NCBI RefSeq assembly: GCF_014696135.1
Contig: NZ_JACJPP010000018.1
Location: 62,001-126,000 of the forward strand
Direction of reading: 5' to 3'
DNA: 64,000 nucleotides
Origin: Nodosilinea sp. FACHB-141
GTDB taxonomy: Bacteria > Cyanobacteriota > Cyanobacteriia > Phormidesmidales > Phormidesmidaceae
How positions within the stretch are numbered: position 1 is the stretch's first letter; each line of letters begins with the position of its first letter. This document shows positions 16,193 through 42,612 of the stretch, one piece after another. The translations under genes were made by a program, and so were the position numbers. The notes under the pieces are model-generated. The model was not told where the DNA came from, made no database searches, and saw only the letters and a list, made by a program, of their open reading frames with translations.

Positions 16193-16306
16193 ATGTCCCT
16201 TTGAGGTCGCAAACTCAACCCGTTGGGCGTGTGGCCACAAACCCTGAATAGGTATCTAGCTGTAACAATCCAAACTCAACTCCTTGATTAACCAGAGGAA
16301 AAGCTT

Positions 16307-17155
16307 ATGCGCATTCATCACCTCAACTGTGGCTGCATGTGTCCCCTTGGTGGCTCTCTCTTTGATGGCTTCAGCCGCGGCCTCACCGCGCATCTCGTCT
16401 GCCATTGTCTGCTAATCGAAACCGATCGCGAACTGGTGCTCATTGACACCGGCTTTGGGCTACAAGATATTGAGGCTCCCTACTCACGGCTCAGCCCATT
16501 CTTCATCCATTTCAACAACATTCAGTTCGATCGCAAATACACCGCTGTTGAGCAAATTCAGCGCCTCGGATTTTCCCCCAGTGATGTCCGCCACATTGTC
16601 TTGACCCACCTCGATTTTGACCATGCCGGTGGCCTAGAAGATTTTCCCGAGGCGACCGTTCACATCATGCAAAGCGAGATAGAAACAGCCCGCGATCGCC
16701 AGGGTTTCATCGCTAGTCGGCGCTATCGCCCTAACCAGTGGGATCAGGTCAAGCACTGGCAATATTACACAGCGGTAGGAGAACCCTGGTTTGGCTTTGA
16801 GGCGGTTCGAGATTTGGCCGGACTGCCCCCAGAAATTCTGCTCATTCCCTTGGTGGGGCACACCCACGGCCACGCGGGAATTGCCGTTCAAACCGCTGAG
16901 GGCTGGTTGTTGCACGCCGGCGACGCCTATTTTTATCGAGATGAAATGAACCCATCGCAGCGCCACTGCACCCCAGGGCTGCGCGCCTATCAGTGGATGA
17001 TGGAAGCCGATCGCACCGCCCGGCTACAGAATCAGGATCGGTTGTGGCAGTTGTCGTGCGATCGCCCTAACGACGTGCGCCTTTTCTGTAGCCATGATGC
17101 CGTTGAACTGGATACCTTCGTTAAATCTTCGTCCCCAGAATCTTCACTACGGTAG
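16307..17155 (+). CDS. Metallo-beta-lactamase-fold hydrolase
   Basis: A 282-residue MBL-fold protein. The zinc motif is HLDFDHAGG with His101, Asp103, Asp105 and His106; further ligands are in GHTHGHAG and HAGDAYF. The pattern resembles lactonase-like MBL proteins (AHL lactonase group), but the substrate is not readable. A GAGGAAA Shine-Dalgarno stands before the ATG. Its last codons and stop lie inside one copy of the dispersed palindrome (17146-17183), so the C-terminal tail SLR is repeat-derived. Confidence 0.85.
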   Translation: MRIHHLNCGCMCPLGGSLFDGFSRGLTAHLVCHCLLIETDRELVLIDTGFGLQDIEAPYSRLSPFFIHFNNIQFDRKYTAVEQIQRLGFSPSDVRHIVLTHLDFDHAGGLEDFPEATVHIMQSEIETARDRQGFIASRRYRPNQWDQVKHWQYYTAVGEPWFGFEAVRDLAGLPPEILLIPLVGHTHGHAGIAVQTAEGWLLHAGDAYFYRDEMNPSQRHCTPGLRAYQWMMEADRTARLQNQDRLWQLSCDRPNDVRLFCSHDAVELDTFVKSSSPESSLR

Positions 17156-17183
17156 GGACATTGCCGGCAATGCCTCTACCGTG
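17146..17183. repeat. Dispersed palindrome, copy overlapping the MBL stop
   Basis: An imperfect palindrome around GTAGGGACATTGCC/GGCAATGCCTCTAC, centred between 17165 and 17166. It is related to the palindromes at 42374-42402 and 48801-48841 by the core GTAGGG.CATTGC and its complement. It covers the stop codon of the upstream gene and may also act as a transcript-end hairpin. Confidence 0.65.
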
Positions 17184-17368
17184 AGAATCGCAGGTGATAA
17201 GGGGTTCGCATGAAATAAATTGAGATTTTTGAAGAATCGTCAGAATCACAGGCATTCCGCTTCTACCAATGGGGAGAATAGAAATACGTCGAGGGTTACA
17301 TTTTGCTCTGCCTATCGATCTTTAGCGGCACGATGTCACTCTAACGCCCCCATTTAGCGGATTGCGCA

Positions 17369-18175
17369 ATGATTCAGAGCATTCAGAAAACAACGTTTAG
17401 CTCAGCCGATTTGGACCAACTTGCAGAAGACTTAAACCGAGATGGAATCTGCATCATTCGCGGGCTGTTCGATCGCGCCCTGATTGACGAATGGAAAGCC
17501 GCCTTTGATGCCCTATTTCAGAAGCGGCAGCAACAACCGGGCGGTGTCGCTCCTAGGGGTACTGCGCGCGGCTATGTGACTCTGCCCTGGGTTGCCCCCT
17601 TCGCCAACCCCGAAGTCTTTGCTAACCCAACCATTCTGGGCATCCTCGATCGCGTTTTTTATCAAGAATATAAGCTGGTGCAACTGGCCGCCGATATTCC
17701 CATGCAGGGGTCGGAATATCAGGACATTCACCGCGATTTTCGCCCCCTCTTTTCTGACCAAATTGTGACACCGCTCTATGCCCTGGCAATCAACTTTCCC
17801 CTAGTCGAAGTCACCGCCGACAACGGCCCCTTTGAGATGGCGCGGGGGACCCATGTGATTTCCCGTGAAGAAGGGTTAGTCAAACTTCGAGCGGGCGAAA
17901 TTGAGATGGAGCAATTTCATATGCAGCTGGGAGATGTGATGGTGCGATCGCCCCTGGCTCTCCACCGCGGCACTCCAAATATTACTCCCGAACCCCGCCC
18001 CATGATAGTGATGGGCTACGTCATGCACTGGCTTCACACCCATAAGGTAGATTTAACCCTGGAGCAGGGCTATTACAATAAGTTGTCACCGCAACAGCAG
18101 CAGTTGCTCCGGTGCAACACCGTAGAACAGTTAGCCGACAACGCCACGGAAACCTACGTAAAGTTCGAATATTAG
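17369..18175 (+). CDS. Phytanoyl-CoA dioxygenase (PhyH) family oxygenase
   Basis: A 268-residue Fe(II)/2-oxoglutarate dioxygenase. The iron facial triad is His121 and Asp123 (IHRDF) and distal His199 (LHRGTPN); an Arg in EPRPMIV about ten residues on would bind 2-oxoglutarate. PhyH enzymes hydroxylate small molecules, lipids or natural products, and the substrate cannot be predicted. It lies between the MBL gene and a GH43 gene, followed by the perfect inverted repeat at 18191-18241. An ATG at 17369 fits the domain start. Confidence 0.85.
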   Translation: MIQSIQKTTFSSADLDQLAEDLNRDGICIIRGLFDRALIDEWKAAFDALFQKRQQQPGGVAPRGTARGYVTLPWVAPFANPEVFANPTILGILDRVFYQEYKLVQLAADIPMQGSEYQDIHRDFRPLFSDQIVTPLYALAINFPLVEVTADNGPFEMARGTHVISREEGLVKLRAGEIEMEQFHMQLGDVMVRSPLALHRGTPNITPEPRPMIVMGYVMHWLHTHKVDLTLEQGYYNKLSPQQQQLLRCNTVEQLADNATETYVKFEY

Positions 18176-18190
18176 TCACGGGAGGCGCGA

Positions 18191-18241
18191 GTTTAGCGAT
18201 CGCAGGAGGTTGTTGAGCGCTACCTCCTGCGATCGCTAAAC
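18191..18241. repeat. Perfect 20-bp inverted repeat with HIP1 in both arms
   Basis: Arms 18191-18210 and 18222-18241 are exact reverse complements over 20 bases with an 11-base loop (TGTTGAGCGCT). Each arm contains the HIP1 octamer GCGATCGC next to AGGAGG or CCTCCT. No T run follows. It starts 15 bases after the PhyH stop and ends 18 bases before the GH43 start, so it may end the first transcript or control the second. Confidence 0.85.
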
Positions 18242-18259
18242 CCTAGCCCCGGTTCAACA

Positions 18260-19246
18260 ATGGCTCCGCAAACCTACACCAATCCGGTCTACCCAGAGTA
18301 TTTTGCCGATCCATTCGTGTGGCAGTACCAGGGGATTTATTATGCGATCGGCACGGGGCCAGCAGAAGCGGCTGGAGAGGTGGATGAGCTGCACAAGCGG
18401 CGAGTCTTTCCACTACTGACATCCGAGGATTTGATCCAGTGGCAACCTGCCGGGAATGCTCTGCTGCGGCCTGATCCCGCCTTGGGGGATAACTTTTGGG
18501 CACCGGAAGTGGCTTACCACGAAGGCATCTTCTATCTTTACTACTCCGTAGGGCATGGGGATAAAAACCATCAGCTGCGGGTCGCCACCAGCATTGACCC
18601 TCTCGGGCCTTTTCAAGATGTCGGCGGGTCGTTAATTGATCCCAATTCCTGTGCGTTTGCCATTGATCCCAGCCCCTTTCAGGATGACGATGGGCAGTGG
18701 TATCTCTTCTATGCTCAGGATTTTTTAGATACGGAAGCAGGGGTGCGGGCGGGCACGGCACTAGTGGTCGATCGCCTCTCAACCATGACCACCCTCGCTG
18801 GAGAACCCAAAGTCGTTCTGCGGGCGCGGCACGATTGGCAACGGTTTTTGGCCGATCGCCCTATGTACGGTGGCACCTACGATTGGCATACCTTAGAAGG
18901 CCCCTGCGTGCGTAAGCATGGCGATCGCTACTACTGCTTTTACAGCGGTGGCCGGTGGGAAACCGAGAGCTATGGCGTTGACTATGGCGTGGCCAATCAC
19001 GTTTTGGGGCCCTATTCAGATGCGGGGAATGAGCAGGGGCCACGGGTGTTGCGATCGCATCCTAGCTATGTTTTAGGTCCGGGACATAACTCGATCGCCC
19101 TGCATCCTGACAACTCCACTGAATACGTGGTTTACCATGCCTGGGATCCCGAGATGACGGCACGGCGAATGTGCATCGATCGGCTGCTTTGGACAGCAGA
19201 AGGACCTCGCTGTTACGGTCCAACCTGGACACCACAAGACATTTAA
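18260..19246 (+). CDS. Glycoside hydrolase family 43 protein
   Basis: A 328-residue single-domain five-bladed propeller. The GH43 catalytic set is present: base Asp17 (YFADPFV), pKa modulator Asp136 (AIDPSPF) and acid Glu213 (LEGPCV). The family contains arabinanases, arabinofuranosidases, xylosidases and exo-galactanases. There is no signal peptide, so it should act on imported oligosaccharides or internal glycans. The galactose setting makes a galactan or arabinogalactan fragment attractive, but this is inference. The ATG at 18260 gives the expected start about 15 residues before the first catalytic Asp. Confidence 0.85.
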   Translation: MAPQTYTNPVYPEYFADPFVWQYQGIYYAIGTGPAEAAGEVDELHKRRVFPLLTSEDLIQWQPAGNALLRPDPALGDNFWAPEVAYHEGIFYLYYSVGHGDKNHQLRVATSIDPLGPFQDVGGSLIDPNSCAFAIDPSPFQDDDGQWYLFYAQDFLDTEAGVRAGTALVVDRLSTMTTLAGEPKVVLRARHDWQRFLADRPMYGGTYDWHTLEGPCVRKHGDRYYCFYSGGRWETESYGVDYGVANHVLGPYSDAGNEQGPRVLRSHPSYVLGPGHNSIALHPDNSTEYVVYHAWDPEMTARRMCIDRLLWTAEGPRCYGPTWTPQDI

Positions 19247-19273
19247 GAAATTGGGTTTAAGCAGGGTATTGAA

Positions 19274-19612
19274 ATGCTATCAAACGTAACTACGGGTAAC
19301 GCCTACAGCGATGGGGAAGAAAAGCGAGGGTGGTTTGTCGGCTCGTTTGTCACCCCATCTATTAGCCCCCGCGCCACCTCGGCAGTGGAAGTGAAATGGG
19401 GCGTTCATAAGGCGGGCGACTGCCGCCCCGAGTGGACAGACCCGGCTGAAACCACCACCCTCTCCGTTCTGATTAGCGGTCGGTTTTGTCTACAGTTTCC
19501 CGATGGTGAAACCGTCCTGGCCACACAGGGAGATTACGCTCTCTGGCTGCCCGGCATTGCTCACTTTTGGCGGGCAGAAGAAGATTCTGTGGTGCTGACC
19601 GTTCGATGGTAA
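19274..19612 (+). CDS. Small cupin-like protein
   Basis: A 112-residue protein shaped like a single cupin barrel: VLISGRFCLQFPDGE, then GDYALWLPGIAHFWRAEEDS. The first cupin motif is not a clean HxH...E...; the second has the Pro-Gly-x-x-H of cupin motif 2. It may bind a metal or a sugar acid, or only share the fold. It starts 27 bases after the GH43 stop, so is probably co-transcribed. No close family name comes to mind. Confidence 0.65.
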   Translation: MLSNVTTGNAYSDGEEKRGWFVGSFVTPSISPRATSAVEVKWGVHKAGDCRPEWTDPAETTTLSVLISGRFCLQFPDGETVLATQGDYALWLPGIAHFWRAEEDSVVLTVRW

Positions 19613-19783
19613 ACGGACGGGCCAGAGGCCCATTCCACAAGAGAGAGCATTTGAGCCTTGGGGATCTCAAGGGCAGTTTTTGTGGGATAGCCGTCCCGAC
19701 TGTCCACTCTTCAGCAACCCAAGCCTTACCGCAGCCCTCAACCCTCTCGAATCCCTCTAAGGATTGGGCCACTATAGAAGCAA

Positions 19784-20791
19784 TTAGGGGCGATCGCTAC
19801 CATGCCGCTTCTGATGCCATTGCCACGCATGGGTGAGAATTGTGTCGAGATCAGCATACTGGGGTTGCCATTCTAAAACACTGCGAGCCTTATCGCTGCT
19901 GCCAACCAAAGTGGGGGGATCACCAGGGCGTCGATGGCGCTCTACCACCTGAATCTCCCGTTGCGTTACCCGACGAGCCGCTTCGATCACCTCACGAACA
20001 GAGAAACCGCTCCCGTTGCCTAAATTAAACACATCACTGTTGCCGCCGTTTAGCAGATATTGCAAACCCAAAACGTGAGCCTGGGCCAAATCTGCAACAT
20101 GAATATAGTCGCGAACGCAGGTACCATCAGGGGTAGGATAATCTGTGCCGAAGATAGCAATGCTTTCCAGCTTGCCCAGTGCTGCCAACAGCACCAGCGG
20201 AATAAGGTGGGTTTCCGGCGCATGGTCTTCGCCTAATCGTCCATCGGGATCGGCTCCTGCCGCATTGAAGTAGCGAAAGCGAACCGACTTTACCCCATAG
20301 GCTGCATCAAAATCTGCCAGCATCCGCTCCACCATTTGTTTGCTGGTGGCGTAGGGGCTCATGGGCTCTTGGGGATGGTCTTCGGTGATGGGCACAAACT
20401 TGGGAGTGCCATACAGCGCGCAGGTAGACGAAAATACCAATTGCTTCACCGAAGCCGCAACCATTGCCTCTAAAAGCGTTAACGTTCCGGCCACATTATT
20501 GCGATAGTACTTGCCGGGATCGGTGACCGATTCCCCCACAGCAATGTAGGCGGCGAAGTGCATTACAGCGGCAATCGGGTAAGTGGAAAAGAGGTGATCG
20601 AGGAAGGGGCGATCGCTAATGTCGCCTACCACTACTTTTACCTGCAATTCCTGCTCCACAAGCTCCTGATGGCCATTCGATAAGTTATCCAGCACCAACA
20701 GGTCATACCCTGCCTGCTGCAAAGCTAGGGCTGCATGGGAGCCAATATATCCCGCCCCTCCCGTCACTAAAATCATCGATTTTTCAGGCAT
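19784..20791 (-). CDS. galE: UDP-glucose 4-epimerase
   Basis: A 335-residue extended-SDR epimerase that interconverts UDP-glucose and UDP-galactose with bound NAD. TGGAGYIGSH near residue 11 is the NAD loop; the catalytic YATSK (YxxxK) and preceding SSTCALYG follow, and FNAAGADPDGRLGEDH and RDYIHVADLA are GalE signatures. A GTG four codons upstream extends the frame, but the ATG at 20791 gives the standard length. It is on the opposite strand from galT/galK and not in the operon. It supplies UDP-galactose both for catabolism and for the mutase encoded at 23 kb. Confidence 0.95.
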   Translation of the reverse strand: MPEKSMILVTGGAGYIGSHAALALQQAGYDLLVLDNLSNGHQELVEQELQVKVVVGDISDRPFLDHLFSTYPIAAVMHFAAYIAVGESVTDPGKYYRNNVAGTLTLLEAMVAASVKQLVFSSTCALYGTPKFVPITEDHPQEPMSPYATSKQMVERMLADFDAAYGVKSVRFRYFNAAGADPDGRLGEDHAPETHLIPLVLLAALGKLESIAIFGTDYPTPDGTCVRDYIHVADLAQAHVLGLQYLLNGGNSDVFNLGNGSGFSVREVIEAARRVTQREIQVVERHRRPGDPPTLVGSSDKARSVLEWQPQYADLDTILTHAWQWHQKRHGSDRP

Positions 20792-21691
20792 GGTAGTCCC
20801 CACATTTGAATGACGTTTTCAACCGTCTTTAGAGAGATTTTATAATCCAAAAAATATCTGTTCGTTGCAACCAAAGCTCATTTAAGCTTAAAAAGAACCA
20901 ACGTCAAGAATAAAAGTTAACACACAAATTCTTGCGCTCATCCTATGTTTATCCCAAGAAAGCTAGAGAAATGGATACAGTCTCTAAAGAACGAACAGGC
21001 CTTTAATTAACTTTAAGAATCTACCATTTCTATGAAGGTTATTGATAAGCCCTTAGGCTTAACTCAATAGAATAGTAAAAAACAGCCGCGTATTCCTCTA
21101 ACTCTAGAAGTAATTGCTCAATGCGGTAGCCGATCGATTTGAGGTGGGTAAGGACACGACGCATCATCAAAAGTAAAGCTTCTTCGCCGTTTTTCCGTCT
21201 TGACAAGCGATCGCACGTAGGCGAACTAGTTCGGCCTCACTGAGAGCAAAAAACCATAGTCACTTTTCAGCGGATCGCGCTCAAACAACTGCTGCGATCG
21301 TTAATAAATCAGCGCATTGTTGTAGCGCAAATGAGCTACCAAACTTCCCGCAGATAGCGACTCTCGTTAGCCTAGTTGAGCAATCACCTCTAGAAATAAC
21401 AGTCTATGTAGCAGAGATACATTACTTTTGGCTCTTTAAACTTCTACCCAAAGAGATGTTCCCAGTAGAAACAAACCCCCTACTCTGTAGGTGTCAGCCC
21501 CACTAGATATCTTTAGCAATGCCTGAAGTGGTGGCTAAGAGCAAATATCTTGCGGAATTGAGAAATTGATTGTTTGCAATGGATAGCTGTGCAAGCTATG
21601 GAATTTCATCAGGATTTCGCCTGTATTAGCTCCAAGAATAGACCACGATTTGGAAACGTTAGCTTGTTAAGCCTGCAAATTGGGAGGTAAA
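20792..21691. other. Gene-poor region with decayed coding sequence
   Basis: A 900-bp gap upstream of both galE and the glycosyltransferase operon. The part next to galE (20800-21060) is AT-rich and probably holds its promoter. Between about 21060 and 21390 the minus strand shows broken open segments, listed separately. No complete gene is supported. Confidence 0.5.
21060..21390 (-). pseudogene. Possible decayed gene remnant, family unknown
   Basis: The minus strand carries three protein-like segments in changing frames: one with SLVAHLRYNNALIY then, after an in-frame stop, RSQQLFERDPLKSDYG; one with FFALSEAELVRLRAIACQDG; and one with LLLMMRRVLTHLKSIGYRI leading into a Leu/Glu-rich helix and a stop near 21040. 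Read together they look like one protein broken by stops and frameshifts. I cannot name the family, and chance open segments remain possible. Confidence 0.3.
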
Positions 21692-42257: not shown

Positions 42258-42612
42258 CCAAGCTGACTGCGATAGGCGCTAATGGCCTAGGGTTTAGGGT
42301 TTAAGGTGTCGGGTTCAAGGCAGGTCATGAACCTGGAATCAATACCGCATCCTAATTTGGTTACAACCGCGTTGTAGGGGCATTGCAGTGCAATGCCCCT
42401 ACGAGATCCCTAATTTGAACCGGGGTTTCTCAAGGCGGATCTCGTACAAATCCTTCTTGGCTACCCCGATTGAACAGGACAAATGCCATAAAGCCTCTGG
42501 CTCGGCTACGCCTGCAACCCTACGGTTTATCCCTCGGGGAATCGGGTTCTGTAATTCGGATTTGGTCTGAGACCTTGAACTACCACCAACCGTTCACCTT
42601 TGGCTTGGCGGA
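42258..42612. other. Intergenic region with dispersed palindrome
   Basis: Convergent gap between shc and the large kinase-GGDEF-EAL gene. It holds a palindrome copy at 42374-42402 and the associated AACCGGGGTTTCT at 42418-42430. No gene is seen. Confidence 0.6.
42374..42402. repeat. Dispersed palindrome, perfect copy
   Basis: Perfect 14-bp arms, GTAGGGGCATTGCA and its complement, around a single G. Fifteen bases further on comes AACCGGGGTTTCT. The same two elements at the same spacing recur at 48801-48863. Confidence 0.8.

Follow-up and report, generated by a model that had tools for sequence, protein, structure and literature searches.

A conserved hairpin in the phyH-GH43 gap of a cyanobacterium and the inversion of its loop in a sister genome

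RESULTS AND DISCUSSION

A long perfect hairpin between phyH and a GH43 gene

The stretch of DNA analysed here (the window; 64,000 nucleotides of the Nodosilinea sp. FACHB-141 genome, G000) carries a phytanoyl-CoA dioxygenase-family gene (phyH) followed on the same strand by a gene for a GH43 family glycosidase, and the short gap between the two is occupied by a hairpin (Table 1). A cupin-like ORF, whose match falls below the family cut-off, continues the series (window 17369-19612).

Table 1 Features of the phyH-GH43 locus, with positions given in the window
Feature	Position	Strand	Remarks
phyH, phytanoyl-CoA dioxygenase-family gene, 268 aa	17369..18175	+	Pfam PF05721, E 2e-12
Spacer from phyH stop to hairpin, 15 nt	18176..18190	+	15 nt in 7/7 homologues
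Extended imperfect hairpin	18184..18248	+	27-nt arms, 89% complementary; folds as RNA
5' arm of perfect stem	18191..18210	+	HIP1 18196-18203, AGGAGG 18204-18209
Hairpin loop, 11 nt	18211..18221	+	With one flanking base per side, reverse-complemented in sister genome G008
3' arm of perfect stem	18222..18241	+	HIP1 18229-18236
Spacer from hairpin to GH43 ATG, 18 nt	18242..18259	+	17-18 nt in 7/7 homologues
GH43 family glycosidase gene, 328 aa	18260..19246	+	Pfam PF04616, E 1.7e-47

The 20-letter arm, GTTTAGCGATCGCAGGAGGT, is followed by the loop and then by its exact reverse complement (18191-18241; 20/20 letters complementary), just as the initial annotation had described, and the HIP1 and AGGAGG motifs that it placed in the arms, as well as the location that it gave between the two genes, were all recovered. 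Within the window, the arm 20-mer occurs at up to 3 mismatches only in these two positions, one on each strand, where 0 would be expected (100 shuffles). RNA folding of the 101 nt from 18170 to 18270 gave -50.9 kcal/mol (z -6.11), with none of 200 shuffles equally stable, which places the structure beyond chance. Long perfect hairpins are also frequent in the surrounding DNA: the 308.6-kb contig surveyed (crude gene calls, taken as longest ORFs of 80 aa or more) contains 20 with stems of at least 12 bp, and two first-order Markov copies of it contain 1 and 0.

The hairpin is GC-rich, as is a canonical intrinsic (L-shaped) terminator, but the 8 bases 3' of the stem (CCTAGCCC) contain no U-tract, in agreement with the earlier remark that no T run follows and that a simple terminator is not the preferred interpretation. 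The spacer towards GH43 likewise contains no T-run, and is too short for a promoter. A stable U-less hairpin 15 nt past a stop codon does correspond to the form described as an I-shaped (U-less) terminator. Our terminator scan did not return the hairpin, but it accepted loops of 3-8 nt only, and a hairpin with an 11-nt loop lies outside its reach. An Rfam search of the hairpin returned no family at the gathering score; the microRNA model MIR3627 fell short of its threshold (30.1 of 64 bits, E 4.4e-5) and was taken as a generic long-hairpin match. A role for AGGAGG as a ribosome-binding site was rejected, as the motif is paired in the stem, lies ~50 nt from the GH43 ATG and is missing from the homologous hairpin of strain FACHB-1052.

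The gene pair as a probable transcription unit

A phyH match was found upstream of GH43, on the same strand and within 1,500 nt, in 57 of 74 analysable loci, and in six of those loci the gap, taken up to where the protein match begins, is 0-11 nt. The survey covered 76 loci (72 public-genome loci with GH43 relatives plus 4 from genome-set searches), with some genomes perhaps counted twice. The frequency of the arrangement, together with the very short gaps, favours co-transcription of the two genes. A promoter scan of 16200-20900 located its sole + strand promoter-like site at 16443-16471 and none from there to GH43, a weak result given 2 sites found versus 3.8 in shuffles. As an observation on gene order in general, phyH 5' of GH43 is a common arrangement in the cyanobacterial loci examined.

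The fold has outlasted its sequence

The GH43 protein and phyH each matched 8 of the 57 genomes searched, and the gap DNA matched 6 (G000 included; G011 over the phyH end only). We compared eight loci from the group to which the window belongs, namely those of G000, G008, FACHB-131 (G028), LEGE 06152, WJT8-NPBG4, FACHB-1052 (G004), FACHB-60 (G030) and G011, whose public names span Nodosilinea, Phormidium and Leptolyngbya. Seven of these eight genomes with the gene pair, the window's own included, carry a homologous hairpin, with a strong fold in five and a weak one in two. The number of paired positions (of 19) and the RNA fold z were 19 and -5.4 in G000, 18 and -3.8 in G008, 18 and -4.0 in FACHB-131, 17 and -4.6 in LEGE 06152, 15 and -1.9 in WJT8, 14 and -1.2 in FACHB-1052, and 19 and -5.8 in FACHB-60. 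The two weak folds are little better than shuffles (WJT8: z -1.88, 8/200 shuffles equally stable; FACHB-1052: z -1.21, 24/200). Both spacers are nearly invariant across the seven homologues (Table 1), and the loop varies in sequence and in length (13-20 nt between 19-bp arms).

Within the stem, 13 of 133 cells over the seven homologues are unpaired. Pairs 2, 6, 10 and 13 of the 19 each show a two-sided, pairing-keeping change in at least one homologue, and FACHB-60 pairs all 19 positions with different bases. The covariation term of RNAalifold (+0.49) was slightly unfavourable, and compensation was seen in 2 of 26 pairs. In G011, which sits on the longest branch of a two-gene tree, the gap contains a perfect hairpin of unrelated sequence (15 bp, 11-nt loop), located 3 nt from the phyH stop and 65 nt from the ATG of GH43 (z -5.83). 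The initial annotation had named the absence of the hairpin from this locus in other genomes as evidence against it; instead, six of the seven others carry a homologue and the seventh another hairpin, so that the gap holds some hairpin in all eight group genomes, with a different sequence in one. The fold outlasts the sequence, as illustrated by the re-paired stem of FACHB-60, the two-sided changes and the replacement in G011. We conclude that the hairpin is a real, conserved 3'-end or intercistronic element, ordinary in kind.

A class of hairpins behind genes

To place the element among others of its genome, perfect stems of at least 12 bp with loops of 3-20 nt were collected from 1.11 Mb of G000, using crude gene calls (longest ORFs of at least 100 aa). 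This yielded 68 hairpins, compared with 0 and 1 in Markov copies of the two contigs. After 12 with GTAGGGG in an arm (the GTAGGGGC dispersed family) were dropped, 47 of the remaining 56 lay in intergenic DNA, with 28 in convergent gaps, 17 in gaps between co-oriented genes and 2 in divergent gaps. Random placement in intergenic DNA (2000 trials) put a mean of 8.2 (max 18) in convergent gaps against the 28 found, and a mean of 11.1 (max 25) within 60 nt of a stop against 35 of the 47 found. Hairpin density was 8.4 per 10 kb in convergent versus 0.3 per 10 kb in divergent gaps. In seventeen of the 47, at least 4 of the 8 bases past the stem are T; in nine, such T are confined to the stem end, and 21 show neither feature. 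The window hairpin is among these 21 without a T-rich stretch, and of the 17 co-oriented cases it lies closest to the next start.

The class favours 3' over 5' ends of genes, which points to a role at RNA 3' ends. This placement is a stronger argument for RNA function than covariation, which is no proof of such function because selection and template switching both leave matched changes. Samples of 80 kb from each of five other genomes gave 0 to 6.2 hairpins per 100 kb, too little to rank genera. Densities were 6.0-7.1 per 100 kb in G000, G008 and G028 and only 2.5 in G009, one of the five sampled genomes and of the same genus, and high density is thus not shown to be a genus trait. A search for the Rho RNA-binding domain found none in the genome, and the same search was positive in 9 of 14 genomes used as controls. 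This bears on the way in which transcripts are ended in cyanobacteria without Rho: a genome with long hairpins behind its genes, a good share of which lack T-rich stretches, offers a direct test of whether a strong stem alone can end or protect a transcript. In Synechococcus elongatus, canonical intrinsic terminator features are described at only 22% of transcription units in the accessible part of a recent study (PMC13289151, 2026).

A putative leaky terminator or 3' decay block

On balance, we favour the reading that the element acts at the RNA level as the 3'-end hairpin of phyH within a probable two-gene unit, as a leaky terminator and/or a block to 3' decay. Upon transcription of phyH, the 20-bp stem would fold 15 nt past the stop codon, where it could serve as a leaky, U-less I-shaped terminator and/or hinder 3'-to-5' exonucleases on a processed phyH end. 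With an 18-nt GH43 leader and no U-tract, full termination would silence GH43 unless a promoter lay inside phyH; hence, the hairpin more probably terminates only in part or protects the 3' end. The predicted outcome is that phyH mRNA would be more abundant than GH43 mRNA, with the levels of the two unlinked. Selection may account for part of the maintained pairing of the stem, and template switching of DNA polymerase from one arm to the other for another part. The processing or mRNA-stability role put forward in the initial annotation is compatible with these findings and forms part of this reading. Against it, we count that pairing is not strictly kept (15/19 in WJT8 and 14/19 in FACHB-1052).

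Several known systems come close to this hairpin. The I-shaped terminators of Synechococcus PCC 7002 (WebGeSTer class, as presented in the accessible text of PMC7406221) are likewise stable U-less hairpins soon after a stop, although the stem of 20 and loop of 11 described here exceed the limits given there (stem 12, loop 8) and, unlike that set, the putative terminator lies inside a probable operon. In the same account, transcripts with U-less terminators have shorter half-lives than those with U-tract ones, which argues against a stabilizing role. In S. elongatus, leaky terminators within operons, for example in the phycocyanin operon, similarly lie between co-oriented genes and lower downstream transcription (6:1 for phycocyanin; PMC3219970, in the sections available), as the hairpin in the window would be expected to do; however, those were TransTermHP predictions (a hairpin followed by T-enriched sequence) seen with RNA-seq, and neither holds here. 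Escherichia coli REP hairpins that stabilize 3' ends, as outlined in PMC13289151, are also U-less hairpins after genes but are repeated, whereas the search for the window hairpin at up to 3 mismatches in the arm gave no other paired copy. The part of that study available also places strong structure at only 75 of 163 U-less defined ends in S. elongatus, the rest being without it, a further point against the preferred reading.

Loop inversion and the question of template switching

The whole gap of G008 aligns forward with that of G000, while its hairpin also matches the opposite strand at 94% (82% for the window hairpin against itself). The 13-nt loop of G008 is the reverse complement of the FACHB-131 loop in 12 of 13 letters and of the G000 loop in 11 of 13, and G008 accordingly presents a loop inverted between retained arms, the pattern expected of a template-switch product. 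The G008 orientation is probably the derived one, since on visual comparison all remaining homologues have their loops oriented as in G000. Polymerase template switching between the arms is the probable cause of the flip.

We surveyed hairpins with 5-30-nt loops in the same 1.11 Mb of G000 against collinear G008 (590,529 bases mapped), counting an inversion where the reverse complement aligned better by at least 4 points, a rule tightened after the output of a looser one had been seen. Loops were inverted at 4 of 34 hairpins with stems of at least 12 bp, 1 of 51 with 10-11 bp, 2 of 277 with 8-9 bp and 2 of 2909 with 6-7 bp (Fisher P = 2e-7 for 12+ versus 6-7 bp and 0.0015 for 12+ versus 8-9 bp). 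Random-segment controls gave 4 of 32,562, two of them overlapping listed flips. The looser rule gave 6/34, 2/51 and 3/277 for the three longer stem classes; two further long hairpins aligned better in reverse by 2-3.9 points only, and a small flip seen by eye at C7:248850 was left out of the count. Such an excess at long hairpins is what template switching would give. Another loop inversion relative to G008 lies at L195:16258-16296 (G000 C7), in a divergent gap between two genes that we take to be sigma-70-like and PriA-like.

Stem pairs could be compared in 39 of the 68 hairpins with collinear G008 sequence. There, 508 pairs were unchanged, 17 were changed on one side and still formed a standard pair, 28 were broken by a one-sided change, 11 were changed on both sides and still paired, 2 were changed on both sides and unpaired, and 10 had gaps. 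The 13 two-sided changes compare with 2.2 expected if the sides changed independently at one uniform rate, an expectation that assumes equal rates across hairpins for a set that includes GTAGGGGC-family members and hairpins inside ORFs.

Arm homogenization and loop or spacer inversion by template switching are documented in the accessible portions of PMC8794818 and PMC8604942. The cases in rRNA genes, bacterial ones included (PMC8794818), and in yeast coding regions (PMC8604942) resemble ours in the inversion of the loop between retained arms, in matched arm changes and in a preference for longer arms, and small loop inversions reported from chloroplast genomes appear to be the same kind of change. 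Unlike all of these, the hairpins described here lie in intergenic DNA of a cyanobacterium, and several stand behind genes. Compensatory change is known from Bacillus cereus terminators (PMC5381666), a study whose accessible text contains no words beginning with "inversion" or "template". Among the papers listed in our literature searches, mostly outside subscription journals, none described flipped loops in 3'-end hairpins of cyanobacteria, which is weak evidence of novelty.

The same mechanism underlies the alternative that the hairpin is a functionless, neutral palindrome, an inverted repeat made and repeatedly repaired by replication template switching. The inversion in G008, the concentration of inversions at long stems (4/34 versus 2/2909), the published mechanism (PMC8794818 and PMC8604942, in the parts available) and the weak folds in WJT8 and FACHB-1052 are all consistent with it, and compensatory changes would also arise from template switching without selection. 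However, neutral palindromes need not follow stops (35/47 versus 11.1 expected) or prefer convergent gaps (8.4 versus 0.3 per 10 kb), nor need a different hairpin take the place of a lost one, as in G011, and we consider this alternative unlikely.

The preferred reading of a 3'-end hairpin can be extended, at present as a rather doubtful conjecture: long, perfect, often U-less post-stop hairpins might be a main signal for 3'-end formation in this cyanobacterium, whose genome gave no Rho match, and might be kept paired by a cycle of template switching that also flips their loops, so that mutation itself would maintain the terminator or stabilizer. The loop flips themselves provide natural replicates in which the loop is changed and the stem kept. 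Both the inverted loop and the class of hairpins lacking a U-tract merit further study.

Readings based on the GH43 leader, HIP1 and dispersed repeats

The hairpin could also belong to the downstream gene, as a 5'-leader element that controls translation of GH43 or shields the 5' end of its mRNA after processing. Its constant 17-18 nt to the ATG and a well-conserved 3' spacer are in keeping with such a role, but the distance to the stop is equally constant, the G011 hairpin lies 65 nt from the ATG and only 3 nt from the stop, and no Rfam family was found at the gathering score. We regard a leader function as quite improbable.

The initial annotation further considered the hairpin to be built around HIP1, a view that the homologues contradict. 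HIP1 is present in both arms in G000 and FACHB-131 (2/7), in the 3' arm only in G008 and WJT8 (2/7), and in neither arm in LEGE 06152, FACHB-1052 and FACHB-60 (3/7). Since the motif occupies both arms in only two of seven homologues and is absent from one perfect stem (FACHB-60, 19/19), we rejected a HIP1-driven hairpin and regard HIP1 as incidental. The hairpin appears, from these sequence comparisons, to be older than its HIP1 sites. On the two-gene tree (midpoint root; support of 100/99 for G000 with G008, less for the remaining forks), the origin of HIP1 is most simply explained by the change of a C-G pair to T-A. The motif occurs 1410 times in 1.11 Mb, compared with 16 and 24 for its neighbours GCGACCGC and GCGGTCGC; being far commoner than either, HIP1 is a plausible target of mutation here. 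A DNA-level element, such as a cruciform or a paired HIP1 methylation target, would draw on the two HIP1 sites spaced 25 nt apart in a perfect palindrome, yet five of seven homologues lack HIP1 in at least one arm, which makes this reading very unlikely. HIP1 in the arms of 2 of the 68 hairpins, versus 0.7 expected from its density, is a small excess that proves nothing either way.

Copies of the hairpin elsewhere were sought by the genome search that the initial annotation had proposed. The 14-letter core of the arm, GCGATCGCAGGAGG, occurs at up to 1 mismatch in 46 places of the 5.9-Mb genome, five of them exact; two of the five are the hairpin arms and the other three are single and unpaired. 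At up to 3 mismatches, the full 20-letter arm was found in the two arms and in five single places with 3 mismatches each (two places for a reversed control pattern). Hence, with up to 3 mismatches allowed in the arm, the hairpin has no further paired copy in the genome, more diverged copies being beyond the reach of the search, and BLAST of the gap DNA gave no other place in G000. This argues against a REP or MITE and against the suggested "repeat seed". The unpaired GTAG or CGTC tag by which REPs are defined in the accessible part of PMC3733652 is absent from the hairpin flanks, and the exact core pattern of the G011 hairpin occurs once in G011 and in none of the other five genomes searched. 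Thus, despite the dispersed palindromes of the GTAGGGGC family (12 of 68 long hairpins) and one match to Y1_Tnp, a REP-associated transposase type, at G000:C18:219529-219894 (23.2 versus a cut-off of 23 bits), the idea that this hairpin is a mobile or dispersed palindromic repeat is scarcely credible.

Two groups of repeats were observed along the way. The dispersed palindrome GTAGGGGCATTGC..GCAATGCCCCTAC and its variants, which make up the 12 family members in 1.11 Mb, occur at window 42374-42402 and also in G000 C18 and C7, and a sequence upstream of phyH (window 17149-17182) looks by eye like a degenerate relative. The first letters of this palindrome recall GTAG-tagged REPs, yet GTAG is paired here. 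In addition, some hairpins share GTTCAGGGTT-like arms (G000 C18:226864-226913, C7:38527-38572 and C7:680285) that are by eye similar to G011:C7:704883-704911, the hairpin replacing the one in the window, and possibly form a loosely related family.
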